Shown here: positions 1-53,344 of the stretch, in pieces
Position numbering within the stretch: position 1 is the stretch's first letter
Layout: every line of letters begins with the position of its first letter
Assembly (NCBI RefSeq): GCF_001570365.1
Contig: NZ_BBYK01000063.1
Coordinates: 62,001-126,000 of the forward strand
From: Microtetraspora fusca
GTDB taxonomy: Bacteria > Actinomycetota > Actinomycetes > Streptosporangiales > Streptosporangiaceae
Length of the DNA stretch: 64,000 nt
Direction of reading: 5' to 3'
Made by a program: the position numbers and the translations under genes
The notes under the pieces: generated by a model
What the model saw: the letters and a program-made list of their open reading frames with translations, nothing else
Database searches by the model: none
What the model was told of the DNA's origin: nothing

Positions 1-3000
1 CGACACGGTCCACGGTGCCTTCGTCGACGTCCTGCAGCGCAGCCAGCCGACCCGACAAGCGCCGGGCTGCCTCGGCGCGATAGAGCGGCAGCCGCTCGGC
101 GACGTGGGCAAGCCGGGCGCGGACAACCGCGAAGTTGCGCGTAACGGTCATGTCGGCGTCCTGCAGCAGGCTGGTCAACTCACCAGCCTGCTCCTCGGAA
201 ACCTCGTTGTTAGTCTGTGCCCGACGCAGTTCGGTCAACAGTTGCTCGTGTAGGTCCTCCAGTTCAGCCTGCACGTCTGTCTGCGCTGCTGCGACCGCCG
301 CTGCGGTATCTTCGCCGATTTCGCGCTCAGACGCGCCGGGCAGCAGGTTCGATGCAGCGGCGGTGAGGAGGAAGTTCGCAGCGTCGAAGTTCTCGGCCCT
401 AACTTGCGTGAAGATTGCGTGGGTCCAGGTGCGCTGGGCAGCAGCCAGTAGCTGCTCGACCGTCGTGTCTGCCGGCACGGTGACGTGGCTGAGAGCGGGG
501 TCGACGACCGCACCGGGCACCTTCAGCAGCTCGGCAGTGAGCACGAATGCCGGTGCGGGCTCACCAATCGGAAGCGCAGTCTCGCCGTCAAGCACGGCGA
601 ACGTAAGCGTCAGCGACGTGGCAGCCGCTCGCGATGCGGCCGCCAACAGCGGGTCGGTGTGCTTGGTCTGCGCCGCCAAGGCGGCGAGCACCGCCTGGCG
701 CCGGTCCAGCACTGCAGCGCGCATGTCAGCAACCTCTCCGGTGCTCCATTGCTGCGCGGCACCGGACCTCTGTAGTGACAGGACCCCCTCAGCCCAGCCG
801 GCGAGAGTCTGAATGGCCTCGTGGACGAGGTTGAGGAGGTTCTGCCGGCCGGCGCCTTCGATGGGCTTGCCAGACGGCCTCCTGAGTTTGCGATCGAGCG
901 TGTCGATCTCGCGGGTGACGTGTGCGGCGTCGCCGAGCCGCTGAATGACGCTGGTGGCCTCGTTCACGGCGGACCGGTCGTCATTGGCAGCGATGGTCAG
1001 CGGCCGACCAAGCAGCCCGTCGGCGGCCATCCAAGCCTTTGCGATGTCGGTCACACGTTTGGAACGTATCGTACGGTGGCGCAGCATCTTGCGGGCCTTG
1101 TCGCTGGCGGCGCGCACCGACCGCTTGACCTCGCTGACATCGGCGAGCACGGTCAGCGGCGGAGCCTCAACGAGGAGGCCTTGCAACGCACGTCGGCCGA
1201 CTTGCTCAGCGACCGCAGCCAAATTCGGCTCGACCCGCGAAGCTAGCTCGCTGAGCACCGCCCCAGTCGTTGGTTCTCCGGTCACAAGGGCGGCGCGCAG
1301 CAGCGAGGCGACGAGGAGCAGTGCGCTGGGCGAGTCGATGGCGCCGGCTGCCATGTCGAGTTCGGTGAGCTCGCCGCGCAATGCGGCGTTGATCGTACCG
1401 GCCTCACTACGCACCGCGTCGGACAATGCGGCGATGCGCAACATGGCCTGCTGGCTGGGTGGCCACTGTCCTACCTGTGCGACGGCCTCGGCCAGCCCGA
1501 AGCGCTGGGAGCCGATGAGATCGGCGACCCCCTCGACAAGGCGAGCATGCGCGATGACCTCGTCACTGACGGTCACGTTCCCTTGGGCAGCAGGATCGTC
1601 GGTGATCAGCCCAGATCCCGGGCTGGACTGGCGCACGGTCAGAGACGTCTCGGGGGGAGAGAAAGCTGACGTCGGCGCCAGATGAGGGAGCGCCGCGGTG
1701 TTCTCACTCGCTGCCTCGGAGGAGGTCTTGTCATCCTGGGTGGTCCTGTCACTGGTCGCCACGCCTGTCTGGTCGTCGACGGTGGTCTCAGCCGTATCCG
1801 CGGCTTCGGCGGTGCGGCGCGTGATCTCAGTCTCCGCCGTGGCAGCGGGAGCACGGGTCAGCTGGGCCGCTGTGATGGCGAGCAGCGCCAAATCTGGATG
1901 GGCTTGAGCAAATTGCTGCTGCAAGGCCATTACCTGCGACGGTGCGATGGCCGGGTCGGAGAGCTCATTGAGCATGGCCAGTGTGACGGCACGAGTCCGT
2001 TCAGCAGCGGTCCACGCCGGGGATGTGGCCAGGACGTCGGCGCGCTGCTGCGCCTCGGCCAGCACGGTGGCGAGCATCGGGTTTTCGGCAGGCGCGACTA
2101 GAGTTCGCAGCTGTGCCAGCCTCGCGCGCTCGGGCGCATCATCGGCAGCCTTGGCAAGATCGTCGAGCGCGGCGCGTACTGCCGCACCGGTGTCAGCGTC
2201 GACGGTGATGCCAGCCGCCCACAGCCTGGCGACGGCGTCGTCGAACGAGGTGTGCGCAGTGATAACCATGTTGAGGTCGTCGACGGCCGGAGGCCGGTCA
2301 GCGGTTACACTTTCCAGAATTCGCCGCGCAGCCGGGACCGCACTCAACAGCGCTTGCCGCAGGTCCTCACTGGCTTGCTTCAACTCGCCGACGGTCAGCT
2401 CGCCGTCGCTGCTGTCCCCGGTGCTCACCGTCATGTGACGGTCCTCCTCGCCATCCATGGCGGATAGCTGCTTGGCAATGGTGGTAGTCGTGGCCGTAGC
2501 GCCGTCTTCATCGATCGGAGTCGGTACTAGGACCGAGACAGCAGGTTCGACGCTTGGCTCGTTCGCCATCGCGCTCTCGGTCACATCGTCCAGATCGTTG
2601 GGGGTGGACGGAATCCCATTGCTGTCGTTGGGGAAACTGAAGTTGGGCGAGGCCTCGATGACCCTTTTGGCAGCTGCGGCGATCGCGACGACGTGTTCCT
2701 CAGCGACAGAGGCCGGTCGGAACCACGGCCGCCGACTCGCCCACAACCATAACCGCGCGTCACGCAGGGACGAGAACCCGTTGGCCCACATGGCGACTCG
2801 TGCAAGCGCCGGTGACCAGTGGACGGCCGGATCACGTACGTCGGACGAGGAGAAGTGTTCAGGAAACTCATCGGCCAGGACGTTTGTCCTCAGGTCGGTG
2901 AGCACCGCGCGGGTCAGGGCCACTGCCGCGTGCCGCGCGGGGTGGTCATCAACGCGCGTCATCCTCATGAGCACGTCGCGGCACAGGTGCGGGCCAATTT

Positions 3001-3271
3001 TGGAGGGTGTGATCATAAGTCCGAGCGGCCGCAGCACCGACGGCCGGCGCGGCTGCGGTGTCGCCGACAGGCCTTTGCTGATGTCTTGCGGTGTCAGCTC
3101 CGCCAGTGCGGATGCCAGAGGCGCCGGGCACGCCATGAGCACCGCGGACAACTCGCTCAGCGCTGCGTCACGTTCGGCGTCCTCGCCGAGAGGCCAGCCT
3201 GGTTCGGGCCAGACCGGATACGGCGTGAACGGCTCGCCGTGCGGACAACTACTACGATGATGACGGGCCAT
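1..3271 (-). CDS. Large helical protein of unknown family (C-terminus outside window)
   Basis: An open minus-strand frame of at least 1090 codons has no stop before the left edge. The start is ATG at 3271, with a GGAGG ribosome-binding site at 3276-3280, five bases upstream. The N-terminal ~230 residues look globular with several Trp/His positions. Acid- and Thr/Ser-rich linkers follow (about residues 235-290 and 500-570). Most of the rest is Ala/Leu/Glu-rich and probably all-helical, with coiled-coil-like stretches near the visible end. I see no Walker, nuclease or protease motif and recognise no family. It lies 86 bases downstream of the 805-aa gene on the same strand, so it is most likely the third gene of the helicase operon. 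A structural, adaptor or DNA-organising subunit is possible, but that is inference. Confidence 0.8.
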   Translation of the reverse strand, partial: MARHHRSSCPHGEPFTPYPVWPEPGWPLGEDAERDAALSELSAVLMACPAPLASALAELTPQDISKGLSATPQPRRPSVLRPLGLMITPSKIGPHLCRDVLMRMTRVDDHPARHAAVALTRAVLTDLRTNVLADEFPEHFSSSDVRDPAVHWSPALARVAMWANGFSSLRDARLWLWASRRPWFRPASVAEEHVVAIAAAAKRVIEASPNFSFPNDSNGIPSTPNDLDDVTESAMANEPSVEPAVSVLVPTPIDEDGATATTTTIAKQLSAMDGEEDRHMTVSTGDSSDGELTVGELKQASEDLRQALLSAVPAARRILESVTADRPPAVDDLNMVITAHTSFDDAVARLWAAGITVDADTGAAVRAALDDLAKAADDAPERARLAQLRTLVAPAENPMLATVLAEAQQRADVLATSPAWTAAERTRAVTLAMLNELSDPAIAPSQVMALQQQFAQAHPDLALLAITAAQLTRAPAATAETEITRRTAEAADTAETTVDDQTGVATSDRTTQDDKTSSEAASENTAALPHLAPTSAFSPPETSLTVRQSSPGSGLITDDPAAQGNVTVSDEVIAHARLVEGVADLIGSQRFGLAEAVAQVGQWPPSQQAMLRIAALSDAVRSEAGTINAALRGELTELDMAAGAIDSPSALLLVASLLRAALVTGEPTTGAVLSELASRVEPNLAAVAEQVGRRALQGLLVEAPPLTVLADVSEVKRSVRAASDKARKMLRHRTIRSKRVTDIAKAWMAADGLLGRPLTIAANDDRSAVNEATSVIQRLGDAAHVTREIDTLDRKLRRPSGKPIEGAGRQNLLNLVHEAIQTLAGWAEGVLSLQRSGAAQQWSTGEVADMRAAVLDRRQAVLAALAAQTKHTDPLLAAASRAAATSLTLTFAVLDGETALPIGEPAPAFVLTAELLKVPGAVVDPALSHVTVPADTTVEQLLAAAQRTWTHAIFTQVRAENFDAANFLLTAAASNLLPGASEREIGEDTAAAVAAAQTDVQAELEDLHEQLLTELRRAQTNNEVSEEQAGELTSLLQDADMTVTRNFAVVRARLAHVAERLPLYRAEAARRLSGRLAALQDVDEGTVDRV

Positions 3272-3357
3272 GAAGCCTCCGGAGGAAGACCGACGGGGAG
3301 GGCCGGGATGTAGGCCTTACGAGTGTCGCGCCGGGTACGGAAAGACGGCGCTGGCAA

Positions 3358-5775
3358 TCAGGAAGTGCCGCGGGAGTGCGGCCGGATGTAGGTGTAGCCT
3401 TCGGGCAGTTCGGCGGGGCCTAAGAGACGAAACCGGGCGCGGTCCTCGCGGTACGCCTGCCGGGCCTCCTCGCTAGCCGTCCAGCCAACGTCGCCTATCC
3501 GACGCAGATGTCCGGCGACCGCGTGGGTCCGCACGAACCGCGCTTCGAGTGTGCTGGATCGGCGCGATGTTGCGGCGCGTGGAGAGCCTTCGATTGGACG
3601 GGGCTCATAGACGACGAGCGGCACGGTCGGCGCACTGGGTACGGGAGGAAGGCACAGCCGCCCGTTCGCCCCGACGCTGCCGACATCACTGCGCAACTCG
3701 CCGGCTGCGAGCAGTTCCTCGACAGCGATGTCGAGTTCGGCGACCGTGTTGGCCGCGGCGATGCCATACACGGCGGCTGGCAGGTGTGCCCGGGCGAGCA
3801 CTGCGCGTCCGGCCGGATCGAGGAGACCGAGACGGCGCACCGCGTGCAGCACGCGCTGCGGCAGCGACAACGATCTGATGCCAGGCCGCCCAGCGGGGCG
3901 TGGCTGCCCGGGGGCAGCGTCGCGAGTGAGGATCCGCGGGTCATAGCGGTGCTCGATTTCTATCCCGTCGACGGTGACCGGGCAGTCGAGCAGTGTCGTC
4001 GTCACATGGACCGCGCTGGCTCCACGCCCCCAAGTGCAGGTGAGCACGATGCTGGCAAAAAACTGCAGCGGCCACTCGACCCCCATAATTTGCGGGTTCG
4101 CGAACAGATCCGTATCGATGGTCTGGGTAGCTTCGGCCGGGTCGAGGTCATACCCGTCGTGGGTTAGCATCAGCCGCAGCCGCACGCCACTCAACCCTGC
4201 GTCGCGCATCTGGGTGCAGATGGCGTCGGGCAGCGGCAATCGGCCTTCGAGCAGGTGGGTCAGCCGCAGCGCCTGCGTCCACGACACTTGGCTGTCGGTG
4301 ACGGTTAGCTCGTCCAGGCCGCCAGCATCGTCCGACTCAGGCTGCGGAATCTCCAGTACCGGATCAGACTCTGGCTGCGGCTGCGTGGTTCTCGGCGTGA
4401 GAACTGGCTCGGAGGCGGAGAGGAGGCCGGTGTCAGCCGCGCCGTCTGCCGGATCAGCGGGCAACTCGTCCGGCACGGTCGGCAGTGTCGACAGCCACCC
4501 AAGGCCCAGTGGCTCAGTCACGTCGATATGGACGTATGTGCTGTCGGGGTACTCGACACGCCACACGCCGCCGCCCTGCCATGGGTCGTCGAGACGCAAA
4601 TGCACCTCTCCGGGGAGCAGCCCGGTTGTCTCGTCCGTCTCGCGACGGGCATAGTCGCTGATGACAGCGTTGGCATGACAGACTGCAAGCGCGTACCCTA
4701 CGTCAAGCAGCTGCGTGGCGCCGTCACGTACGGCATGCAGGCGCGGCCCCACTGCGGTGTACATAACCTTCCGGCTCGGGGTCCACCTGCTTCGGCGCGA
4801 CGGCACGGCGCTTCGTGCCAGCTGGGCGGCGAGGCTGCCGAGGTCTCCGCCGCCAAGTGGTCCGGGATTGTCGAGCCGATCCTTCAGCGACGCACGTGTG
4901 AACGCGTACCCGCGCCACATGCGGAGTTCCGGCAGGCTCGCAAGCGCGTCGCCGACGGCGGCGAGCATCCCGGTCAGCGCGGCGGCGAGCTGCTCCTCGC
5001 TGGCGTCGTCGGATAGCACGGTCGTCAGCGGCAGCGGCGCGGTCGCGCTCCGCAGCTGATCGCGTCCTCGAGTGAGCAGGTACTGCGCGTAGAACGCGAT
5101 GTCGTCCAGGTCGGCGTCGCGTCGCGTCGCGTACCGCGCGTCGAGTAGCACGTGCCCATCCGCGTCCAGCCACCGGCCGCGCTGGCGCAGCCTGTCGAGG
5201 CGGGTCATCGTCGCCGAGAACCCCTGTCCGAACGCATCTACGTCGATCACGAGACGTTCACGCAGCACTGGCCCGTCCTGCGGCGCATCGACAACACCGG
5301 GCCCGATCGCGCCAGCGGGCGCACCGCTGAGCCATCCTGGCAGCGCGCCGTCGGTTTCCAGCGCAGGATGTGCGCCCTCCTTGTAGACCACCTCGGCGAA
5401 CAGCGGCTGGTCTCCGGCGGCGATGTTGACCATCGCGCCCACGGGCAGCGCCTCGGTTGTCTCCCCGAACCGAACCTCCGGAAACGCGAACAGGTCCAGC
5501 GGTCCGCCGACGTATCCGCCAGCGACCACGTCGTAGCCGAAATACACAGCGTTGAAGGCCACGTTGACGTGAACTGGCGCGCGGCGGGCGGCGACGAGTG
5601 CGGACAAGTACTGGGCCAACCGGTCACGGTCTTGGGGCGCTGTAGCGTCCCAGCCCAACGCCATCGTCGGCGTCAGAAGCGGCCCTTCCTCGAACGGGCG
5701 CCACAAAGGCACGGCCCCGGCAGTTTGCGGGGCGGTCGCCGAGGTCTCGACGCGACGATCATTCAGGTCGGTCAT
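3358..5775 (-). CDS. 805-aa protein of unknown family, partner of the giant helicase
   Basis: This is a complete frame whose ATG overlaps the stop of the upstream 2107-aa helicase gene by four bases (ATGA at 5772-5775), so the two are probably translationally coupled. No Walker box, nuclease motif, membrane segment or cysteine cluster is evident. The first half looks mixed alpha/beta, with aromatic-rich strands such as NAVYFGYDVVAGGY. An acidic, Pro/Gln-rich linker lies near residues 450-500 (PQPESD occurs twice). The C-terminal ~130 residues look like two winged-helix-type segments. I do not recognise the family. The strict coupling suggests that the protein works in a complex with the helicase, for example as a substrate-recognition or scaffold subunit; that role is inferred from context only. 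Confidence 0.85.
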   Translation of the reverse strand: MTDLNDRRVETSATAPQTAGAVPLWRPFEEGPLLTPTMALGWDATAPQDRDRLAQYLSALVAARRAPVHVNVAFNAVYFGYDVVAGGYVGGPLDLFAFPEVRFGETTEALPVGAMVNIAAGDQPLFAEVVYKEGAHPALETDGALPGWLSGAPAGAIGPGVVDAPQDGPVLRERLVIDVDAFGQGFSATMTRLDRLRQRGRWLDADGHVLLDARYATRRDADLDDIAFYAQYLLTRGRDQLRSATAPLPLTTVLSDDASEEQLAAALTGMLAAVGDALASLPELRMWRGYAFTRASLKDRLDNPGPLGGGDLGSLAAQLARSAVPSRRSRWTPSRKVMYTAVGPRLHAVRDGATQLLDVGYALAVCHANAVISDYARRETDETTGLLPGEVHLRLDDPWQGGGVWRVEYPDSTYVHIDVTEPLGLGWLSTLPTVPDELPADPADGAADTGLLSASEPVLTPRTTQPQPESDPVLEIPQPESDDAGGLDELTVTDSQVSWTQALRLTHLLEGRLPLPDAICTQMRDAGLSGVRLRLMLTHDGYDLDPAEATQTIDTDLFANPQIMGVEWPLQFFASIVLTCTWGRGASAVHVTTTLLDCPVTVDGIEIEHRYDPRILTRDAAPGQPRPAGRPGIRSLSLPQRVLHAVRRLGLLDPAGRAVLARAHLPAAVYGIAAANTVAELDIAVEELLAAGELRSDVGSVGANGRLCLPPVPSAPTVPLVVYEPRPIEGSPRAATSRRSSTLEARFVRTHAVAGHLRRIGDVGWTASEEARQAYREDRARFRLLGPAELPEGYTYIRPHSRGTS

Positions 5776-8700
5776 GGCGCACCTCCGGTTCTCGCAGCCA
5801 CTGGGCCTGTCACTGTCGTGGCGGCAGCAGTGCGGGCGAGTTGCCGGGTCTCACGGCGCACGTGGCCTGCCTCTCGCCATCGGGAACCGACCGGTACCAC
5901 GCGTCCCGCGGCCTGCAGCCTGGCCAGGGAGTCTTCCACGTCAGCCAGCCGAGCGGCTGGGTTCGCGCCGAAGTATCGGCTGTTGACCAGTCCGGTGCGC
6001 AACCGCACGCGGCGCCGGGTACGCGGCGAGAAATACGTGTCCTCACCGCGCAGCGCCCGCAGCACGTCGCGGGCGTGGACGCCATGGAAGACCTCCCATA
6101 CCAGGCGAAAGACCTGTTCGTCGAGCCGCTGCCGTCGATGCGCAGCATCGATACGCGCACCGGCTGGCCGCGGCCGAGGCGTCTCCAGCGCGACCGCGAC
6201 GGCTGGCTTGCGCTCTCCAAGCGGCCACATCGGCGTGTTCCAGCACGCTGAGCATCGGTTCGCCGCCGTCGAACAGCAGCCAGCGGGCAGGTCAGCGACG
6301 CCGAAGTAATCTGCGAACTTGCGGTTGGCGCATGTCGTCGAGTCAGTGAAGAAGTCGCGCAGTAGCCGGATCTCCTCGGCGGCCCGGGCAACCTTGCCCG
6401 ATATGGCAGGCAAGAACTGCTGAGGCAGCGTGATTGTCCGCACGGCGATACCGGTGACCAGACGTCGGCTCGGCGCGGCCGACACGTCAAGCAGTCCCCG
6501 GTCATGCAAGTCGGCTAGTAACTGCCAGGTGCCAGCCGCGTCATCAACGATGGTGCGGTATTGCGGCACCGTCGCAGTCAGGTGCTCATCCAGTCGCGCG
6601 ATGTCGAGATGGTTCCGACGCAGCGCGCCCGGCGTGCTCGCACGGACCGGCAGCGCAAGCACCGCCGTGACGACACGGTCCTCCACACCGTCGTCAACGT
6701 CGCCCCGGTTGCGGCCGACAGCGGCGGCGTGGGGTACCGCGCCGAGGAGCTCGCCGGGCTTGACGATGCAATACGGCGGGAAGTCGCCGAGGTCGGTGAT
6801 CGCGCCGAGACCGGCGAGCGTGGTGAAAGCGCGCACCACTCCTGCTGTGTAGTTGTCGGCAGTGCGAGGCTTGCGCGCTTCGTCCGGAGTGAGCCACCCG
6901 GCAGCGAGGTCCTCACCGATGAGCGCGTCGGCAACGCTGGTCGGGTCGAGGACCGTCTGGCACCTCAGCACAGCCCGGCCCATCCGCTCGAGCAACGCTG
7001 ACGGCAGATCGCTACCCGTCATGAACGCGACGGTGCGCAGGCCGCGGCCGGTCAGCAGCGCCAGGCCAACGTTTGCCGGCCACGGCGCGGCGCCTCCTGA
7101 TTCGCCGCAGGCGATGTCGCTGATTGGCGTTCCGATCACCGCATCGCCGTTGGCTTCGAGCGTGTTGACGGGGAGCTCGGCGATACCGACCGGAGCGGGA
7201 GTGTCAGCGCCGATGATGGCCTTACCCGCTGCGTCCCGGCCTGTCCGGCCGATCTGCTGGTACAACGCCGCAAGGTCGGTCGGCGCGCTGACGCAGAAAA
7301 CCGTCCGCACGTCGGGACGGTTGACGCCCAGACCGAACGCCGACGTGGCGACGATGACCAGTGGAGCGAACCCCTCCTCACCCTTGCGCGGCGCCTCCCG
7401 GAACTCCATCATGACCGCTGATTTCTCCGCCTCCGTGAGCCGGCCGTGGAACCTTCGTACTCGGACGCCGCCCTCTCCGAGGTAGTCACGAAGGTGTGCG
7501 TGGAGCGCGACGACCTCCTTCACCGTCAGGCAGTAGAAGATCGCGTGGTTATCAACGGCGTCGAGAACCTCCTCCGCAAGACCAGCGCTGATGGAGGGGC
7601 CAGCCGCCTTGATCGTGCGCCGGAAGATCGCCAGCTCGGGCCGGATGGGGTTCTCCCGAACGGTCATCAGCGTCCCAGCGGTGGCCTCGGCTGCTTCACC
7701 GGCCGGGCCACCAGGTGCCTCGGCGGGCAGGCCGAACACGCCTTCGCGCAGCCCGGCGTACACAGTGCGATTCGCCGTCGCCGTCAGAGCGGTCACCGGC
7801 AGGGCGTGGTCGCGTCGTAGCTCGACGAGAAACTGTTCCACTCGACTCATCGATGGCCGGAAGTCGTCCCACTGCACGAACGTGTGCGCCTCGTCAAGCG
7901 CGATGCGCGTGACGATTCCGGCCTCGACCGCGGTGCGGACGACTTCCCGGAACCGGCGTTGGCACAGTCGTTCAGGCGAGATGTACACGATACGGATGCC
8001 ATGGTCAGCGCGACCGAGGAGCTGATCAGCGACCTCGGTCTTGCCTGCTCGGCTGCTCGACTCGCGCAGTGGCGCTACCAGCGCGCGGACCGCGCCACCG
8101 ATGCTGCGGTTGAGCTCAAGTGCTTGATCGTGCATAAGCGCGACCAGTGGCGAGACGACGAGCGTCACGCCGGGCAGCACCAGCGCCGGCAACTGGAAAC
8201 AAAAGCTCTTGCCGAAACCAGTCGGAAGCAGCCCAAGGACGTTCACGCCGTCGGACACAGCCCGGATGACCGCCTGCTGCGACGGCTTGAGCGTGGCCGG
8301 CTCATCGGACAGGCGCAGCAGCCCGCCGATGACGGCGGCCCGGGCGAGCACCTCGTCGCCGAGGGTGCCGTCGGCGCGATGCCGCGCGACCTGCGCGGCG
8401 GTGAGCGCGAGCTCCCGGATGCGTCTGGTCTGCGGCAGCAGCGTATGCTCCTCAAGCGCTGTCGGCGTCAACAGCCGTGCGGCGCGTTCGGCGGTTAGAA
8501 GGCCGTGCTTGGCGAGGAAATTCCAGATGCGCGCCCACCCTTCGTTCATTGGTACGACGTTGCCGCCGCCGCGTTCGCCGGTGACAGGGTCATCACGCAG
8601 CAGCCCCTCCTCGAGCGAGCCAAGGAACGTCTGCCGGTACGCGCGACGCAGTGCGGTGTGCCCAGCGAGTTTGCGATCGCTGATGATGACGACGCCGTGA

Positions 8701-11700
8701 TGCCGCTCCGACCGGATGAGCCGCCCGACGGCCTGCCTGAGCTGCAGCGCCGCCAGTGGCAGGTAGTAGTGCTCGGTCGCGACCGCCTCCGGGTCGTCGG
8801 CGTGCACGGCCTCCGCCCGCACGGTGATCGCGGCGCGCCGGGCTTCGATGACCGGCGCGGCAAACGGCGCGAACGGCAGCTTGTTAATCCATACCAGCCG
8901 CAGCCGTCGCTCGTCGGAGACGTCGACGCCCTGCCACAGACCCTTGGTTCCGACGAGGATGCCACCGCCGTGCTCGGTGTCGGTGAACTGTCGTACGCCG
9001 CGGGGGTTGCCGAGCACGAGTGCAGACAGCACAGGGGTCTCGTCGCCGCAGGTGCGCAGTTCGTTGGCTAGGTAGTCGGCGATACCACCAGCGGTCGAGC
9101 GTGCGGTAGTGAGCACCAGCGCACCCCCGTCATACCCGCCACGGGTGCCGGGCAGCGCTTCGTCGGGCACATCGACTGGCGTGACGATCTCCCGGGCATA
9201 GCCCGCGAGCTGATGCGCGACGGTTCGCATCGCGCCTTCGGCCTGCTCGGCCCAGGAGGGGAAGTCAGAAAAGCACACTAGCTCGGTCTGCCGCTCGTAG
9301 TCGAACGGCGTCGGCAGATGCAATGTCGCGATGCCGGTCGGCAGGCCGAGGCGATCGCGAATGAACTGCCACCGTCCCGACACCCGCAGCGTCGCGGACA
9401 CGTAATAAGTCCGCGCGAATGTGGCGAGGAACTGCTGCCAGACTCCGTCGGCGGACAGCTCGATGGGGCTGGTCGCCACACGGAACCGGTAAGAGCGCAG
9501 ACCAGCGCGTAGCGCCTCGAGCTCCTCGGCATACACAACCCGGTTCGACGTCCCCGGCGGCAGCGACCCGAGCGGCACCTCCGCAGTGCCGGCACCATCA
9601 GCCGCCCCATCATCCCTGTCGTCGGTGGCCGCCAGGTCCTCGGAGTCGTCATCGCTATCCGCGACCTCACCGGCCTCGTCCTCAACCGCGTCATCGGCGG
9701 TCTCCTCGTCGCTCTCGGCCATGGCACCCGCCACCGGAGGTAGGCCGAGAATGCCGTCGACATCGGCGACGATCGTCCGGCTAGCCTCCTTGACCTGCGC
9801 ACATCGGGTCAGCAGAGCTCGAATACGCTCAGCCTCGAAGAAGTCCAGGCTCGGAGCGTGCACCTCCAAGTACGCCGCCAGGGCTCCGACGAGAGCCTCA
9901 CACTGCCCGGCCAGGCGCAGCAGCAGTGCGGTCAGTGTGCGGACCTGCCCTACGCCGGCGCTGCCGGCATACGCGCTGGCCAAGGTGACGCTACGCGATC
10001 CAACAACTACACCAGCGCCCGTACCTCGTGCGTCGAACACCTGCCCGGCCACGCGCGGCAACTGCTCGTGATCGAGCAGTAGGCCGAGGTTGTCGACGGC
10101 CTCCCGCACCGCGTCACGTGCGGCACTTCGGCGAGCGGTGTCCGTCCAGGCGATCACCTCGCTGAACAGGTCCTCGACGGTGCGGTAGTCCACCATGGTC
10201 GTCAGCGCCGACGTCGCCGCGTCTTCGAGCTGGTGCGCCTCATCAACGATGAGCAGCGTATCGGGACCGAGCGTGCTGAGATCATCGAGATGGGCGAGCA
10301 GCAGCGCGTGGTTGGCCAGCAGGAGCCGATGCGCCGCGAGCGCTTCCCGAACCGCGTCAGTGTGTGCGGCCATGGGAGTACCCGCCTCCGCCGGGTACTC
10401 CCCGTTACTGGCCTGGCTCAGTGACTCCAGCCACACCGGCAGCGCCGGACCGGCGTATCGAGCGAAGAACGCGGGCACGTCAACCGAGTCGACCGAGTGC
10501 GCCGACCATGAGTCGAGCACGTCCGTTGACGCTAGGAACCGCAACGTCAAGTAGACGACGAGCTCCCGGAACGCCGGTCGTGTCAGGAACCGGTTGCGTG
10601 TCCCATGCCTTGCCGAGCGGACGGCGTCAACCCTCGTCGCGTCTGACAGCACCACATTGAGCGCCCGCAGTGACAGCCGGTTTCCCTGCCCTTTGACCAC
10701 GTCACTGACCTCAAGCAGGCCAGGCACGACCCCGTCTAGCAGTGCCACGTCCTCAGCCAACTGCGCCTGCAGCTGCTTGGTGAACGTCGTGACGATCGCC
10801 CTCCGCTGCTGCCCGCCGGCCAGCCACTCCAGCACCGTGGCCAGGATGGCGAAGCTCTTACCAGTACCTGTCGGCGCCTCCACCAGCGCAGGCACCCCAG
10901 CGTCAGCCCAGCCGTGCAGCGCTGTTGTCATCTGCTCCTGCGCAGGCCGGCGTTTAGCTGCCGCACCGTGTGATACCGAAGCCAACAGCACCGGATCGAC
11001 GCGCCCGTCGGCACCGCGCAGCGACGCACTGACCGTAAGTCCGTTACGACTATTCGCGACGCTCGGTGGTGCGCCCACCAACGCGCGCCGTGGCCGGTGT
11101 CCGGCCAGCAGCACGCCAAGGACAGCGGCCACATCAGCGACACTGTGCGCCCGGGCTTCGCCGAGCAGTTGCCCGGCTGCGGCACCCCGCGTCGCCGCAG
11201 CGAGATGTCGCACCAGAACCCACGCTGGCGAGTCGGCGCACACAGAAGCAACCACGTCGGCGAGGTCAGTGGGCCACTCAGCAACCTGTTCGCCAGCCCG
11301 AATCAGCAACCGCACTAGCAGCTCGGCGTCGTCTCCTGCATCGTGCCAGCCTAGTTCGGAACGGTCCACGCCAAGGGCGTCGGCGAGTTCGGCAAGGCGG
11401 TGACTGGGTGCAGTCGGCCAGAGGGCGAGCGTCAGGTAGTACGCGTCGACCGGGGTCGGCGCCAGCGTCGGCAGGCCCTCCCGCTCGTAAGCCGCGGCCA
11501 GCAGCGGGAAGTCGGCCTCAGTGCCGTTATAGGTGACGACCATATCGGCGTCGGCGGTGAACGCGTGCAACTCCAACAGTGCTTTTGCCTGCGCGACAGC
11601 TAAGGCCGCATGACGTTCACGCAGAGACGTCGAACGGATCTCCCATGTCTCGTCGGGCAGTTCAACGAACCAGTCGCGCGGCGGTTCCGCAGCAATCCAT

Positions 11701-12095
11701 GTGGCGTCGGTGCCAAACCGTACTGCTCCTATTTGGAAGATTCGCTTGTCGAGGAACGGCTCGCTGGCCATCGTCCGGACGACCGACTCCAGGTCGAGGG
11801 CGACCGCACGCAAAGGCCGGCCGGATGTCACCCCACCCCCCGGGGGCGGTTCGGACTCCTGTTCCCCGGTGCCGGGTACCGTCAGCCGGCCGGCGGCCTC
11901 GAACAAGGCTCCGGCCGCGATGGCACGCGAGATGAGGTCGGCAACGCGTCGTGGATGCAGCCCGGTGAATCGCCCCTGCGCAGCCGCTGTCAGCTCAGTC
12001 AGTGTCATGCCGTCGGGATGCTCGGCAATGAGGTCGACGAGTCGACGTGCCGCTACGGGCAGCCCCTTCTCTGCTTTTCCGTCAGCGCTTGCCAC
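5772..12095 (-). CDS. Giant fusion: winged helix + DEDDh exonuclease + DinG-like helicase + RecQ-like helicase
   Basis: The protein is 2107 aa. Residues 15-75 look like a winged helix. Residues 96-265 form a DEDDh 3'-5' exonuclease with an apparently complete catalytic set (D101, E103, D195, H251, D256). Residues 385-1180 are DinG/XPD-like: Walker A EAPTGTGKS at 407-415, DEAH at 618-621 and motif VI QAVGRLIRSE at 1121-1130, split by a very acidic linker at 790-836. The usual Fe-S cysteines are absent (KGQGNRLSL where the family has K-G-R-x-N-Y-x-C). Residues 1265-1660 are RecQ-like: PTGFGKS near 1291, DEAH 1401-1404 and QIGRTGRD near 1614. A Cys-containing zinc-binding segment follows near 1900 (PAGCCSTAANRCSACW). 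The exonuclease-plus-Fe-S-less-DinG half resembles Firmicutes DinG; a RecQ fused behind it is unusual. The start is GTG at 12095, and the ribosome-binding site is weak. It is the first gene of its operon. Confidence 0.9.
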   Translation of the reverse strand: MASADGKAEKGLPVAARRLVDLIAEHPDGMTLTELTAAAQGRFTGLHPRRVADLISRAIAAGALFEAAGRLTVPGTGEQESEPPPGGGVTSGRPLRAVALDLESVVRTMASEPFLDKRIFQIGAVRFGTDATWIAAEPPRDWFVELPDETWEIRSTSLRERHAALAVAQAKALLELHAFTADADMVVTYNGTEADFPLLAAAYEREGLPTLAPTPVDAYYLTLALWPTAPSHRLAELADALGVDRSELGWHDAGDDAELLVRLLIRAGEQVAEWPTDLADVVASVCADSPAWVLVRHLAAATRGAAAGQLLGEARAHSVADVAAVLGVLLAGHRPRRALVGAPPSVANSRNGLTVSASLRGADGRVDPVLLASVSHGAAAKRRPAQEQMTTALHGWADAGVPALVEAPTGTGKSFAILATVLEWLAGGQQRRAIVTTFTKQLQAQLAEDVALLDGVVPGLLEVSDVVKGQGNRLSLRALNVVLSDATRVDAVRSARHGTRNRFLTRPAFRELVVYLTLRFLASTDVLDSWSAHSVDSVDVPAFFARYAGPALPVWLESLSQASNGEYPAEAGTPMAAHTDAVREALAAHRLLLANHALLLAHLDDLSTLGPDTLLIVDEAHQLEDAATSALTTMVDYRTVEDLFSEVIAWTDTARRSAARDAVREAVDNLGLLLDHEQLPRVAGQVFDARGTGAGVVVGSRSVTLASAYAGSAGVGQVRTLTALLLRLAGQCEALVGALAAYLEVHAPSLDFFEAERIRALLTRCAQVKEASRTIVADVDGILGLPPVAGAMAESDEETADDAVEDEAGEVADSDDDSEDLAATDDRDDGAADGAGTAEVPLGSLPPGTSNRVVYAEELEALRAGLRSYRFRVATSPIELSADGVWQQFLATFARTYYVSATLRVSGRWQFIRDRLGLPTGIATLHLPTPFDYERQTELVCFSDFPSWAEQAEGAMRTVAHQLAGYAREIVTPVDVPDEALPGTRGGYDGGALVLTTARSTAGGIADYLANELRTCGDETPVLSALVLGNPRGVRQFTDTEHGGGILVGTKGLWQGVDVSDERRLRLVWINKLPFAPFAAPVIEARRAAITVRAEAVHADDPEAVATEHYYLPLAALQLRQAVGRLIRSERHHGVVIISDRKLAGHTALRRAYRQTFLGSLEEGLLRDDPVTGERGGGNVVPMNEGWARIWNFLAKHGLLTAERAARLLTPTALEEHTLLPQTRRIRELALTAAQVARHRADGTLGDEVLARAAVIGGLLRLSDEPATLKPSQQAVIRAVSDGVNVLGLLPTGFGKSFCFQLPALVLPGVTLVVSPLVALMHDQALELNRSIGGAVRALVAPLRESSSRAGKTEVADQLLGRADHGIRIVYISPERLCQRRFREVVRTAVEAGIVTRIALDEAHTFVQWDDFRPSMSRVEQFLVELRRDHALPVTALTATANRTVYAGLREGVFGLPAEAPGGPAGEAAEATAGTLMTVRENPIRPELAIFRRTIKAAGPSISAGLAEEVLDAVDNHAIFYCLTVKEVVALHAHLRDYLGEGGVRVRRFHGRLTEAEKSAVMMEFREAPRKGEEGFAPLVIVATSAFGLGVNRPDVRTVFCVSAPTDLAALYQQIGRTGRDAAGKAIIGADTPAPVGIAELPVNTLEANGDAVIGTPISDIACGESGGAAPWPANVGLALLTGRGLRTVAFMTGSDLPSALLERMGRAVLRCQTVLDPTSVADALIGEDLAAGWLTPDEARKPRTADNYTAGVVRAFTTLAGLGAITDLGDFPPYCIVKPGELLGAVPHAAAVGRNRGDVDDGVEDRVVTAVLALPVRASTPGALRRNHLDIARLDEHLTATVPQYRTIVDDAAGTWQLLADLHDRGLLDVSAAPSRRLVTGIAVRTITLPQQFLPAISGKVARAAEEIRLLRDFFTDSTTCANRKFADYFGVADLPAGCCSTAANRCSACWNTPMWPLGERKPAVAVALETPRPRPAGARIDAAHRRQRLDEQVFRLVWEVFHGVHARDVLRALRGEDTYFSPRTRRRVRLRTGLVNSRYFGANPAARLADVEDSLARLQAAGRVVPVGSRWREAGHVRRETRQLARTAAATTVTGPVAARTGGAP

Positions 12096-12715
12096 CCCTG
12101 TTGTCCCTACTCGTTCGAATTTCGCAACTCACAGCAATCTCGAGCTTCCCAACTCGTGGGCGCTTCAGCGCTGATCGCGGTCTGTAGGCGCCACCCATGA
12201 AGCCCGGAACGACCGGCGATCGGAAACATGGACACACGGACACACGGCGGTCAGGACCGCGTCAAGGTCGAGGCCAGTGACAGCGAGCATGCAACATAAG
12301 GGCTTCCAGTACAGCTGGCGACATAAGGTTGCACATTACGCTTGCGCGAGAGTGGAGCGCCATACCTCGAATCAGATAGACCTATGGCTCCGCATCTATA
12401 TAGAGGTGCGGAGCCGCTTCGCGTCCGCTGAACCGGCATCTATCACAATCCGGCATCCTCGATCATCTCGGCCTTTCAGTGCGAAGCACGACCGGCGCGT
12501 AAGACAGAAAAGGACTCGGAGGATAGAAGACCCTAAAAGCTCTTCGCGGTGATCGGTGTGAGGGTCGCCTTGTACGGGCACCATCGGTCAGTCGTCCAGG
12601 TGACGGCGAGGGACAGCCGGGACGTGAGTCGGTGCCGTGATGGCGCAGCGCATTCGGGGTCGGCAGCAACCTGCTTGAGATAGCGGACCAGGAGGGGACC
12701 TCCCGCCCCCGGCGC
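12096..12715. other. Intergenic region between the two large minus-strand operons
   Basis: About 620 bases without a convincing gene. The short frames here have arginine/serine-rich, low-complexity translations. The stretch is visibly AT-richer than its neighbours around 12260-12560. It must contain the promoter of the giant-helicase operon (start at 12095) and the 3' end of the pPIWI-RE transcript (stop at 12716). The only clear structure is the hairpin at 12386-12415. Confidence 0.6.
12386..12415. terminator. Perfect 9-bp hairpin, possible terminator or regulatory stem-loop
   Basis: GGCTCCGCA (12386-12394) is exactly complementary to TGCGGAGCC (12407-12415). The 12-base loop itself contains the palindrome TCTATATAGA. 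It lies about 300 bases beyond the pPIWI-RE stop and about 290 bases before the start of the giant-helicase gene. No T-tract follows on either strand, so a classic intrinsic terminator is not proven. A protein-binding palindrome or a 5'-UTR structure for the downstream operon is equally possible. Confidence 0.4.
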
Positions 12716-15538: not shown

Positions 15539-15552
15539 ACGTCCTCTTTCCT

Positions 15553-18500
15553 TCAGTTGTCAGGCTGCTCGGGCTCATGGGGTTCGATGCCGGCGTAGGA
15601 GAGGAACGCGTTCAGTGCCTCCCCATACAGGTCGTTCATCCGCTGCCGCACCTCAGGCGTCCACTTCGAGTGGATGCGGCGTAGAACGGTCTCCAGGTCG
15701 GCGCTCCAGGTGTCCTCGTGGAAGGCGTAGTCCACCATGTGCAGCACGGCTTCCGTGCCGCCACGGCGGGCACGGCCAGCGAGCTGGATGAGGTCGACGA
15801 TCATGCCCGCCACGACCTCCTCCTGGAGCGACTTGTGCATCGCCGTGAATTGAGGGGCCGTGCGTAGGAGGAGCGCCAGCCGCTCCCAGGCCGCGTCACG
15901 GGCTTCGGCCAAGGCCTGGGATGGATCCGCGCTTCCGCCCGTGGGCAGGGCGCGCAGTCCGGCGGCGTTGATGCTGCCATACATCTCGGCGGGTTCGTTG
16001 AGCAGCGCGAGGGGGCGCACACACAGGTAGACGGATCGGACCGCCGAGCGGATGCCGACAACGATGTTGAGGCCTCTGGCGATGAGTGATAGAGGCACGA
16101 CCAAAACCTTGCCGTGCTGCGGGAAGTCTTCGAACTGTTCCGCAGTCAGGCGTACGGCGACGTTCTCCCTCGGCAGTTCGGGATCGGCGCTGTGCCGGTC
16201 CTCAGACCGGACGGCTACGCATAGTCCGCCGTTGTACCGGCCGGCCTGGGCGATGCCGCGGGCGAGCCAGGCGCACTGTTCATAGGAGTTGGCCACGACG
16301 AGGACGTGGGCGCGGTCGGGATCCTTGACGGCCGTACGTTCGAGTTCGCGGTGGATGTACTGGTCGTACAGGTTGCTGCCCAGCTCGATGAGCGCGTCCT
16401 TCTTCCGGCTGGGGTGCGTGCCGGAGACTTTGATGGGCTCGCCGAAGAGCGGGTGGCCTTCGCCGTAGTTGATGCGGTGTTTCTTGGCTCGGATGGACTT
16501 GGCCTGTGCGTCGGTCATCCACCAGCGCACCGGCGCGTGGAGGTGTTCCCGCACGGCTTGGGGGAAGTAGGCGGTGGCCGACAGGCCCATCACCGGTCGT
16601 TGGGTGCCTGCCAGGATCAGGGAGACGATGCCGCCGAGTTCAGCGGTGAAGGTGTGCGGGTCTCCGGCGATGGTCTGGGCGACCAGTGCGGCGTTCTTCT
16701 CCCTGTCGTCAAGTCCGGTGACGCGGTAGCCGGTGATGGCACGGCCGAGCATGCCGAGCGGGAGCACTGACGAGACGGCTGTCGTCTGGAGGTTCTCCAC
16801 GATCCTCTGGGCCGAGCGCAGGCCGGAGGAGCGGTAGTCGTGTGCCTTCTCCTGTAGCTCCGACAGTGCCTCATCCAGCTCGATCATGGCGGCCCGGGTG
16901 ACAAGGAGGTTGATGGCCTGCGTGCGTCGGTGCGCGTCTTTGATGGTGTCTTCAAGAAGGCGGTGGAGTTCGAGCTTGACCGCATCCAGCAAGTGCTCGC
17001 CGCGTGGCGCCACCAGTGCGCCGAGCGCGTTCCGCACCTCGTGCCAGTCGGGCTCGAGAAGGCTCGCCTGTCCGGTCAACGGGTCGAGGCGCTGGTATCG
17101 GGCAGGCATCAGAGCGTTGAGCTGCTGGAACAGCTCCGCCGGGATGTTCATCTCCTCCGCCTGGTCCGCATCGGGCCAGAGCAAGCGGATCAAGGTGCGG
17201 TCCCGGCCGCGGGCCAGATGCCAGCGGGTGCTGGTCTGGTCGGGGATACGGGCCTGAGCACGGTCGTCCTCTGTGGCGTGCAGGCTGAGGGCGTTCTTGC
17301 AGATGTTCAGCAGCAGGAACTCAGCCATGAGGCGGACGTGGCTGACGGCGGGTAGCAGGTTGTGCTCGTCGTTGATGCGCAGCCGCTTCGCGTCGGTGTC
17401 CATTTCCTGGGGTGCCGCCGACCAGTGGCGCCTGGAGTGCAGGACGATCTCGCCGGCGCACTTATCGACGGCTCGGGACTGGAACTGATCGACCTCGTCG
17501 ACGAGTACTGCATGGCAGGTCCGAAGTGCGAACTCGGCAGCTGTCATGCTGCGCACGGGGCGACCGTCCAGGTTCACGCCGATTCGCAGATTGCCCTGCA
17601 TGAACACGTAGTGGTTCATGATGACGATGTTGGCGGTGGAAGCTTCGTACACCGGGGTGAACTTCCCACAAGTGGGAATCCAAGGGCAGGCCGCTGAACC
17701 GACGCCCTGTCTGTGAAGCGACAGGCACGGCTCGCGCCCCGGCGGGTAGTCCCCTGTGGCTTCGAGGAACGTCTTCTGTGCGCAGCCGTAACCCAGCGGG
17801 TCCACGTCGCGCTCGGCTCGTTCCCCCCACTCACCCGGGGTGCCGGGATCCTCTTTAATCAAAGAGACGAGCTTCAGAGCACGGTCCTGCATTCCGGAGG
17901 AAGACATCAGGTGCGCACACGTGGGTGCATCGTTGATGACTCCCGAGCGGTGCAGATGGGCCAAGTCCTCGCGCACGTTCCGGGTCGCGGCCAGGCAAGC
18001 CTTGATGTCCGGCAGGACGATGGCGACGCGCAGGCCGTTCACGGCGAACCAGGAAGCCATGACTCGAACCAGGACGCTCTTGCCGGTACCGGTAGGCGCG
18101 TTGAAGATCTCCATCCCGCCCGCGGTCAGCGTCAGCGCCTCCTTGGGCGACAGCGTGTCAGTGGTCTGCAGCACCTCGAAGAGCTGTCCGAGGGTGCGGC
18201 GCAGGTAGCGCTTCTCCTCCGGGTAGCGCAGGTCGATCTTTTCTGCGAGGGCAAGTAGTTCGGGTGTGGGGATCCGCAGATCTGCCATGTACGGAGCCGT
18301 CGAGACGTGGGGAAGCCTGTCGTGGCCGAGCGGCTCAGTGAACTGGGGATAGGTGGGGATCACAAGCCTTCCGTGGACCTGGCCCACCTCTTTGACGAAG
18401 ATCTCCCCTGTGGTCCAAGTGCCCGGGCCAGCAAACTCCGGAGGCTTGGGGCGGGCACTGGGGCGCCGAAAGCGCGCAGTCTGCCGGTCAACGTAGTCGA

Positions 18501-18882
18501 GCAGATCGCCCCCAACCCTCGGCAACGCAGCGTCGGCGTTGAAGAGGTTCTCGCCGACGAGTTCGAACGGCGCCATGGGCGCCGTACCATCGGCCGGGTC
18601 CGTACTCAGGCGCGCAAGCAGAGAACGGGCCGCGATGGAGAAGGTCCGGACGTCGGCCAGCTCACCGGGCGCGATTGAGCAGACCATGCCGATCCGCTGC
18701 TTCTCGTCGTGAGGCAGGCCCTTCCAGCGAGCCCACGCCTGGTACTTCCCCGAGACAAGGAAGGCCGCCTGGGCGAAGGGGGCGGCACCGCGAGCGTCCC
18801 CCTCTACTGCTTGAGGGAAGTAGTGGGCGGCCAGGGCCAGCGCTGTGAAGACCGCGGTCTCCCGGATCGTTGTGTCACTCAC
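15553..18882 (-). CDS. DinG-type helicase of the pPIWI-RE island
   Basis: The protein is 1109 aa. Walker A is NAPTGTGKS at residues 261-269, and the Walker B/motif II is DEVD at 462-465. C367, C386, C399 and C405 lie between them in the position of the XPD/DinG iron-sulfur cluster, so an Fe-S cluster is likely. The C-terminal motor half contains MGLSATAYFP near 780 and a motif VI-like LAGRARRGG near 1045. The ~200 N-terminal residues and the ~70 after the motor are island-specific. The GTG start (18880-18882) overlaps the stop of the REase gene by four bases, and pPIWI-RE starts 14 bases downstream, so the three are co-translated. A superfamily 2 helicase that unwinds or loads substrate for the pPIWI-RE/REase pair is the accepted prediction. 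Confidence 0.88.
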   Translation of the reverse strand: MSDTTIRETAVFTALALAAHYFPQAVEGDARGAAPFAQAAFLVSGKYQAWARWKGLPHDEKQRIGMVCSIAPGELADVRTFSIAARSLLARLSTDPADGTAPMAPFELVGENLFNADAALPRVGGDLLDYVDRQTARFRRPSARPKPPEFAGPGTWTTGEIFVKEVGQVHGRLVIPTYPQFTEPLGHDRLPHVSTAPYMADLRIPTPELLALAEKIDLRYPEEKRYLRRTLGQLFEVLQTTDTLSPKEALTLTAGGMEIFNAPTGTGKSVLVRVMASWFAVNGLRVAIVLPDIKACLAATRNVREDLAHLHRSGVINDAPTCAHLMSSSGMQDRALKLVSLIKEDPGTPGEWGERAERDVDPLGYGCAQKTFLEATGDYPPGREPCLSLHRQGVGSAACPWIPTCGKFTPVYEASTANIVIMNHYVFMQGNLRIGVNLDGRPVRSMTAAEFALRTCHAVLVDEVDQFQSRAVDKCAGEIVLHSRRHWSAAPQEMDTDAKRLRINDEHNLLPAVSHVRLMAEFLLLNICKNALSLHATEDDRAQARIPDQTSTRWHLARGRDRTLIRLLWPDADQAEEMNIPAELFQQLNALMPARYQRLDPLTGQASLLEPDWHEVRNALGALVAPRGEHLLDAVKLELHRLLEDTIKDAHRRTQAINLLVTRAAMIELDEALSELQEKAHDYRSSGLRSAQRIVENLQTTAVSSVLPLGMLGRAITGYRVTGLDDREKNAALVAQTIAGDPHTFTAELGGIVSLILAGTQRPVMGLSATAYFPQAVREHLHAPVRWWMTDAQAKSIRAKKHRINYGEGHPLFGEPIKVSGTHPSRKKDALIELGSNLYDQYIHRELERTAVKDPDRAHVLVVANSYEQCAWLARGIAQAGRYNGGLCVAVRSEDRHSADPELPRENVAVRLTAEQFEDFPQHGKVLVVPLSLIARGLNIVVGIRSAVRSVYLCVRPLALLNEPAEMYGSINAAGLRALPTGGSADPSQALAEARDAAWERLALLLRTAPQFTAMHKSLQEEVVAGMIVDLIQLAGRARRGGTEAVLHMVDYAFHEDTWSADLETVLRRIHSKWTPEVRQRMNDLYGEALNAFLSYAGIEPHEPEQPDN

Positions 18883-53131: not shown

Positions 53132-53344
53132 CTCAGCTCCACGCGTTGATCCACAGGGGACACCAGATGGCAGCGTAAGGATCATGTGCATATTGAGCGC
53201 ACATTCCGGACATAACGCCGTTATGCGCGCAAGCGCCAGAAGTTGACGGACCACCCTCACCCTTGTCGCGACTCTCAGCAACCTCTAAGGTTTCCCGTGA
53301 AGCTGGGCAAATGTAGGGGTTTGTCCGCCTCATCGGAGGTGAAA

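Follow-up and report, generated by a model that had tools for sequence, protein, structure and literature searches.

An actinomycete operon joining an exonuclease-DinG-RecQ protein to a giant AAA+ ATPase, and the relation of that ATPase to pPIWI-RE systems

The first 12,095 positions of a 64,000-nucleotide stretch of the Microtetraspora fusca genome (contig NZ_BBYK01000063.1, positions 62,001 to 126,000, G000:C62:62001-126000; the whole stretch is referred to as the window) carry three adjacent genes whose products are termed P1, P2 and P4 in operon order, P4 being the third protein throughout. P1-P2-P4 is a genuine co-evolving operon that occurs across many actinomycete families, yet it is modular. 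A defence role in the broad sense is likely, judging from its domains, its patchy distribution and its neighbours; that P1-P2-P4 is, more specifically, a DNA-degrading system built on an ATPase platform and directed against invading DNA by the mechanism set out below stands at about an even chance. No name for this gene set was found among the open-licence PubMed Central (PMC) papers listed by the searches (titles and abstract starts) or in PADLOC-DB 2.0.0 of 2023, in agreement with an earlier sequence-only reading of the window, whose author knew of no named system of this composition.

The P1-P2-P4 operon

5772..12095 (-): P1, 2107 amino acids (aa), GTG start; DEDDh exonuclease, DinG, RecQ and RecQ-type zinc cysteines
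5772..5775 (-): ATGA stop/start overlap of P1 and P2, 4 bases
3358..5775 (-): P2, 805 aa, without a sequence family; structure model with a predicted local distance difference test (pLDDT) score of 84
2..3271 (-): P4 aa 1-1090 of 2046, the remainder lying beyond the window edge

The contig beyond the window places the whole P4 gene at L003:4131-10271 (G000:C62:59131-65271), so that the third protein, for which the sequence-only reading could give a length of at least 1090 aa, proves to be 2046 aa long. The same reading had described a single exonuclease-DinG-RecQ polypeptide with intact Walker A and DEAH boxes, coupled by an ATGA overlap to an 805-aa protein; the open reading frame (ORF) and the overlap were both confirmed, and the catalytic residues are conserved as described below.

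P1, an exonuclease with two helicase motors

11286..11813 (-): DEDDh exonuclease domain, ~aa 95-270; D101, E103, D195, H251, D256
8607..10955 (-): DinG-type helicase, aa 381-1163; PADLOC typeIV_DinG 1.2e-59, NCBIfam DinG 3.2e-54
7176..8294 (-): RecQ-type helicase, aa 1268-1640; NCBIfam recQ 1.9e-53, PDB RecQ 8.8e-32
6243..6332 (-): RecQ-Ct-like zinc cysteines C1922, C1941, C1948, C1951

P1 was aligned with its relatives in a set of 22 proteins, the window protein plus 21 (L030 and L048 of the 23 P1-bearing loci were omitted as broken ORFs). The five exonuclease residues, the Walker A lysines K413 and K1296 and the DEAH boxes at 618-621 and 1401-1404 were found in 22/22 sequences, as were the zinc cysteines C1922, C1941 and C1948; C1951 was found in 21/22. 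The DinG and RecQ parts gave strong matches on which Pfam, NCBIfam, PADLOC and PDB agree. Profile matches of the exonuclease were weak (RNase_H_2, E 0.011; PolC, 3.6e-7 at aa 156-273), and its assignment as a DEDDh domain is based on these together with the conserved motifs. No cysteine lies between the DinG Walker A and DEAH motifs of the P1 sequence, the site of the iron-sulfur (FeS) cluster in other DinG proteins. Since P1 scores well below curated cut-offs (recQ 181.8 versus 640.2 bits; DinG 184.3 versus 789), it is not a housekeeping RecQ, DinG or DpdF protein.

P4, a giant ATPase

Family profiles say little about P4: the Pfam match is marginal (AAA_22, aa 1374-1518, E 3.3e-6, 27.9 bits with the cut-off at 27), PADLOC gave no match at E 1 and NCBIfam none that was meaningful. 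A structure model covering the C-terminal half (aa 960-2046), built from 46 sequences and reaching a pLDDT of 86, had 40 Foldseek matches in the PDB at E <= 0.001. Cdc6/Orc1 came first (5.2e-7), and the other top matches included PABY2304 (8.8e-7, TMt 0.63), ORC2, TnsC (1.9e-5) and, in sixth place, Avs3 (2.2e-5). P4 combines this fold match with an intact Walker A (GGRGLGKSALL) and Walker B (LLILLDE), both largely conserved over 70 aligned rows, as expected of the ORC/Cdc6-TnsC-STAND ATPases. By its model, then, the C-terminal half of P4 is an AAA+ module closest to these ATPases, the clade being read from the rank of fold matches and not from a tree. A later stretch retains the strand-helix order and has no Walker motif; judged from sequence and predicted secondary structure, it resembles a second ATPase-like module that has degenerated. 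When the P4 profile was compared with PDB sequences, ribosome recycling factor was the best match (0.0013), over a helical part only, and this was not trusted.

P2, a candidate DNA-binding partner

P2 has no family match at E 0.1 in Pfam, NCBIfam or PADLOC. Its model, from 51 sequences, gave as top Foldseek match the N-terminal domain of LlaJI.R1 (6c5d_A; E 0.021, probability 1.00, TMt 0.51), which we take to be a B3-like DNA-binding domain, and winged-helix proteins appeared among the other fold matches with probabilities up to 0.44. No Foldseek match reached E 0.001, either in general or against viral structures, and no match was apparent for the N-terminal half. Against PDB sequences the best E values were 0.36 for the P2 profile and 0.089 (SNAP25) for the strand-rich part listed below, neither of them meaningful.

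3898..4326 (-): P2 strand-rich region, aa 484-626, placed by predicted secondary structure only

As a guess, this region may be the part of P2 that resembles the LlaJI.R1 domain. The C-terminal half of P2 (~aa 453-804) recurs in the actinobacterial loci L007, L008 and L013, where the N-terminal half was undetected.

The sequence-only reading had assigned neither partner to a family it recognised. This holds for P2 and needs correcting for P4, whose C-terminal half has an AAA+ fold; structure prediction, which it had proposed for both, gave this fold for P4 and, as top match for P2, the B3-like domain at E 0.021.

Conservation and distribution of the operon

The P4 alignment was used to scan a collection of 84,980 species; 82 places were confirmed and 80 of them kept, giving 79 loci, and all counts refer to the kept list. 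Every one of the 79 loci lies in an actinomycete record. Partner genes were sought in the locus DNA by tblastn, and loci were classed as A (P1-P2-P4), B (P2-P4 without P1) or C (neither). In 23/79 loci the three genes stand in the same order and on the same strand (class A), and the P1/P2 overlap is exactly -4 in 16 of these 23, with start codons chosen by script. Distance matrices of P1, P2 and P4 from 19 complete loci and the window correlate at 0.958-0.971, a value reached in 0/999 permutations. On the P4 tree, made by a quick method with long branches flagged, the window groups with Nonomuraea (Streptosporangiaceae), Geodermatophilaceae and Amycolatopsis (Pseudonocardiaceae); its neighbours therefore span several families, indicating that P1-P2-P4 crosses family lines.

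The operon is rare. Among 388 genomes of the host's taxonomic class, the P1 DinG-RecQ junction was found in two, the M. fusca genome and G131, both of which also carry P2 and P4, and near full-length P2 was found in the same two. In four more, P2 is represented by fragments, C-terminal halves or a weak match to its tail, and P4 relatives, some weak or fragmentary, occur in 19/388.

P4 also occurs in other company. Class C comprises 19/79 loci, 11 of which share a downstream family with MBL/beta-CASP/RMMBL domains in each of the three members tested; the remaining eight either are truncated, lie at contig ends or show no partner. P4 relatives followed by an MBL/beta-CASP/RMMBL protein were noted at L088:8360-16461, L096, L097 and others. 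P2-P4 copies are carried on large plasmids, and P4 relatives occur in 28 plasmid records from several phyla. A cyanobacterial plasmid of Brasilonema (L135:6629-16888) has a P4 relative followed by an SNF2-PLD helicase-nuclease. On Salinibacter and Thiodictyon plasmids, the protein following the P4 relative has 377 and 384 aa, respectively, and no Pfam match (L136:13048-14181, L137:12841-13995). P2 and P4 had no match in phage records, and a pattern-based scan of viral contigs for P4 returned 46 pattern stretches and no relative.

Relation to the neighbouring pPIWI-RE system

12096..12715: gap of 620 base pairs (bp) between the pPIWI-RE triad and P1
12716..15538 (-): pPIWI-RE (PprPIWI); PF13032 8.2e-67, PADLOC PprPIWI 1.6e-88
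15553..18882 (-): PprDinG helicase of the triad; PADLOC 2.5e-98
18879..20126 (-): pPIWI_RE restriction endonuclease (REase, PprRE); PF18154 1.6e-28
20188..21477 (-): helix-turn-helix (HTH_3) gene; PF01381 1.7e-14

The pPIWI-RE system has been described as three genes coding for an REase, a DinG helicase and a pPIWI protein (Burroughs et al. 2013, PMC3702460). The genes at 12716-20126 fit this definition, with pPIWI-RE, REase and PprDinG in the fixed order; together with the HTH_3 gene they lie upstream of P1 on the strand of P1-P2-P4. A homologue of the HTH_3 gene (44% identity) also precedes the triad of Acrocarpospora (L033:16512-17735). A single transcript spanning the triad and P1-P2-P4 was considered and rejected because of the 620-bp gap, which makes it likely that the triad and P1 are transcribed separately.

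A closer connection is seen in Alphaproteobacteria, where P4-type sequence is fused to pPIWI-RE.

L133:3134-12436, L141:5710-15894, L142:6280-16050: pPIWI-RE::P4 fusion genes

The fusion protein of Bradyrhizobium elkanii, present in four records of which one was examined, has 3100 aa: Pfam places the pPIWI_RE X, MID and RNaseH domains between aa 40 and 940, and the P4 profile finds a P4-type part from aa 2003 to 3052 (E 8.6e-119). The same domain layout recurs in proteins of Microvirga (3394 aa) and Azospirillum oryzae (3256 aa); the PIWI part was identified by Pfam for Bradyrhizobium and by likeness to the Bradyrhizobium protein for the other two, whose P4 part is recognised by the P4 profile. 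All three fusions are preceded by PprRE (9.5e-10 to 5.9e-6) and PprDinG (1.3e-19 to 1.1e-12) genes in the classic order. In Azospirillum ramasamyi (L134) the pPIWI-RE and P4-type parts are split over two ORFs. The pPIWI protein of the window is too distant to match the fusion proteins at E 1e-3 by phmmer or tblastn. The words 'AAA' and 'ATPase' do not occur in the main text of Burroughs et al. (PMC3702460), so the link to P4 is not described in that text. As P4 relatives are fused to pPIWI-RE within REase-DinG-pPIWI triads, the presence of pPIWI-RE next to the window operon is probably no accident.

The association extends to genomes and loci. PF13032 occurs in 17/388 genomes of the class (16 above cut-off), and PF13032 and P4 occur together in seven against 0.8 expected (Fisher 3e-6; 2.7e-4 without the M. 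fusca genome and one sub-cut-off match), with genome size as a confounder. A search for pPIWI-RE covering 40 of the 79 P4 genomes (23 class A, 13 class B and 4 class C) gave matches in 14 of them, namely 9/23, 5/13 and 0/4, respectively. On L012, a plasmid of Streptomyces xanthophaeus without P1, the triad lies ~3.5 kb upstream of P2, and in Acrocarpospora (L033) the triad and its HTH gene lie downstream of the operon on the same strand. In L035, whose contig was matched by its number, and in L037, a pPIWI-RE RNaseH match lies downstream of P4 on its strand, at distances of ~18 and ~13 kb, respectively. A second pPIWI-RE RNaseH match of Acrocarpospora, at G403:C13:43760-44566 near L033, lies ~13 kb past the first on the same contig.

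These data raise the question of whether P1-P2-P4 functions as an extension of the pPIWI-RE system beside it, with P4 (and P1-P2) as the ATPase and processing arm of one guided system. The fusions in REase-DinG-pPIWI order, the physical linkage in the window and at L012, L033, L035 and L037, and the co-occurrence in class genomes all speak for it. Set against them are the 26/40 P4 genomes searched in which pPIWI-RE was not found, the Nonomuraea deserti operon, which has no triad on its 36-kb contig, the gap in the window and the genome-size confounder, and we consider such an extension unlikely. The sequence-only reading had attached weight to the position beside a pPIWI-RE island: the fusions carry that link past adjacency, and the same N. 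deserti contig and genome searches show that it is not obligate.

Defence genes around the operon

Past P4, outside the window, lies a type I-B CRISPR-Cas locus (G000:C62, ~42.7-53.9 kb) with genes for Cas6b, Cas8b, Cas7b, Cas5b and Cas3b (L002:2529-10483) between repeat arrays at L002:698-2236 and L002:10595-11870, of 24 and 20 copies; it also holds an ORF matching part of the Cas1 profile only. Between P4 and this locus are genes for a methyltransferase-domain protein (mad2, 8.4e-19) and a near-cut-off HAD_SAK_2 protein (L003:1569-3838). Elsewhere in the window, a large ORF of 2092 aa occupies 47003-53281 (-).

Flanks were compared by PADLOC (E <= 1e-10) using 121 genes around class A operons, called with a custom gene caller. 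The best 25 of 81 families there include JetA, JetC (types 1-3), JetB1, JetD3, PD-Lambda-1 (two genes), PDC-S57 (two genes) and the L033 triad, and the separate Jet types suggest three Wadjet loci. Controls were 138 of 152 genes called in 10 stretches taken from four genomes, including one class B genome; the best 25 of 43 families comprised mad3 (four), mad8 (three), PD-T4-6 (two, presumably kinases), mad6 (two), MkoA (two) and others.

Comparison with known systems

P1-P2-P4 shares with the pPIWI-RE system the use of a DinG-type helicase and a nuclease, in addition to adjoining it in the window and having P4 relatives fused to it in three alphaproteobacterial genera. P1, P2 and P4 have no PIWI or pPIWI_RE REase match, however, and of the 34 PADLOC families matched by P1, the best 25 do not include PprDinG.

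BREX and related systems contain BrxC/DUF499 ORC/Cdc6-STAND ATPases with inactive STAND domains, according to PMC12839542. The likeness, at the level of the clade only, is that of a large ORC/Cdc6-STAND ATPase as the proposed platform with DNA-binding partners. P1, P2 and P4 have no PglZ, BrxX methyltransferase or BrxC-type match, the BrxH helicase match of P1 is weak (1.4e-7), and P1 fuses a nuclease and a double motor in one chain; the operon falls outside BREX.

The RecQ part of P1 matches DpdF models (7.3e-56), but at 148.8 bits against a cut-off of 550, and neither P2 nor P4 matches any further Dpd protein, which places the operon outside Dpd. It falls outside type IV-A CRISPR as well: typeIV_DinG is the best PADLOC match of P1 (1.2e-59), yet Csf4 scores 50.5 against 400 bits, P2 and P4 match nothing and the neighbouring CRISPR is type I-B. 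The DnaQ-DinG family (TIGR01407, PRK08074) has the same exonuclease-then-DinG order and likewise no FeS cysteines, but P1 is far under its cut-offs (167 versus 547.7 and 184.3 versus 789) and adds RecQ, zinc cysteines and the partners P2 and P4. RecBCD and AddAB place two motors of opposite polarity and a nuclease on one duplex; P1 differs in having superfamily 2 (SF2) instead of SF1 motors, a DEDDh instead of a RecB nuclease and a single chain, and the resemblance is one of analogy only. The possibility raised at the outset that the proteins might belong to a known housekeeping recombination system or a named defence system did not materialise in any of the comparisons with RecQ, DinG, Dpd, BREX or type IV-A CRISPR.

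Proposed mechanism and alternatives

The following model is proposed. P1, P2 and P4 would form a complex whose target is invading phage, plasmid or conjugative DNA. P4 would serve as the platform, its C-terminal half containing a predicted active AAA+ module. P2, made together with P1 by translational coupling, would be the recognition subunit and may contact DNA through its B3-like and winged-helix region. P1 would be the effector, with two SF2 motors and a DEDDh domain digesting one strand; its domains are the reason for proposing DNA unwinding and digestion. RecQ proteins move 3'-5' and DinG proteins 5'-3', and because these polarities are opposite, P1 could travel along both strands of a duplex in one direction, in the manner of RecBCD. 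A role in intergenomic conflict is argued from the rarity of the operon, its spread across families, the carriage of P2-P4 on plasmids, the island setting and the swapping of partners around P4.

Several observations weigh against this model. In 37/79 loci (class B) P2-P4 stands without P1, so P1 is dispensable for whatever P2-P4 does. Only the retrieved DNA was used to score P1 as absent, and two class B loci (L044 and L074), with <200 bp ahead of P2, are indecisive. Since 33 of the 38 class B rows on the P4 tree form one Streptomyces-Kitasatospora clade, the high count of the P1-less form owes more to sampling than to origin. The co-occurrence of the three genes that the sequence-only reading had put up for examination is accordingly real in 23/79 loci but not strict, given class B and the other partners of P4. 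P1 was not found on plasmids, where there was one RecQ-only match (72,556 records, E 1e-30). The B3-like match of P2 is weak and its position in P2 a guess; this support for P2 as a DNA reader and the P1-less loci are the main doubts. NSF, ClpC, ATAD2 and p97 also match the P4 fold (2e-5 to 5e-4), so the clade of P4 is assigned by rank only, and likeness to ORC and TnsC cannot separate defence from replication or transposition. Finally, the neighbour comparison, a scoring that the earlier reading had also called for, is small; Wadjet and PD-Lambda-1 matches were obtained in class A flanks and control genes have PADLOC matches too, making it suggestive at most.

An optional DNA-repair or recombination machine, MrfAB-like or a second DinG/RecQ pathway, would account for the operon without defence. 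DEDDh-DinG and RecQ proteins belong to repair families, and the failure to find P1 on plasmids fits such a role; MrfAB, according to PMC12458937, is a helicase plus 3'-5' exonuclease acting in nucleotide excision repair and provides a precedent. A repair machine accords poorly with a rare, patchy distribution (P1 junction 2/388, P4 family 19/388) spread across families, with P2-P4 on plasmids, with several adjoining defence systems and with P4 relatives fused to pPIWI-RE elsewhere, and we regard it as improbable, to the same degree as an extension of pPIWI-RE. A mobile-element maintenance or transposition module, pairing a TnsC/ORC-like ATPase with a DNA-binding protein, would suit the P4 fold matches and the large plasmids but is very unlikely, as no transposase, integrase or replication protein was recognised by eye among neighbour families common to at least four loci and neither the phage records nor the pattern-based viral-contig scan yielded a confirmed relative.

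Implications

The conflict role proposed for P1-P2-P4 can be extended, tentatively and at somewhat less than even chances, to the P4 family as a whole. P4 would represent a family of giant ORC/Cdc6-STAND ATPases, not described before, acting as the common platform of nucleic-acid-targeting conflict systems that exchange their recognition and effector parts: PIWI, DinG and REase (fused, Alphaproteobacteria); B3-like P2 with DEDDh-DinG-RecQ (actinomycetes); a beta-CASP nuclease (Actinomadura and relatives); and SNF2-PLD (Brasilonema). If this were true, P2 would stand in for the PIWI module as its protein-based equivalent, and P1 would be a one-chain, two-motor exonuclease. One giant ATPase family would then link DNA targeting by PIWI modules with targeting by protein recognition, much as BrxC-type ATPases tie BREX-like systems together, and pPIWI-RE systems would gain an ATPase partner. 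P1, uniting an exonuclease and two motors of opposite polarity in one polypeptide, would amount to a compact machine for degrading DNA, and soil actinomycetes apparently carry, in P1-P2-P4, a three-gene machine of undescribed composition.

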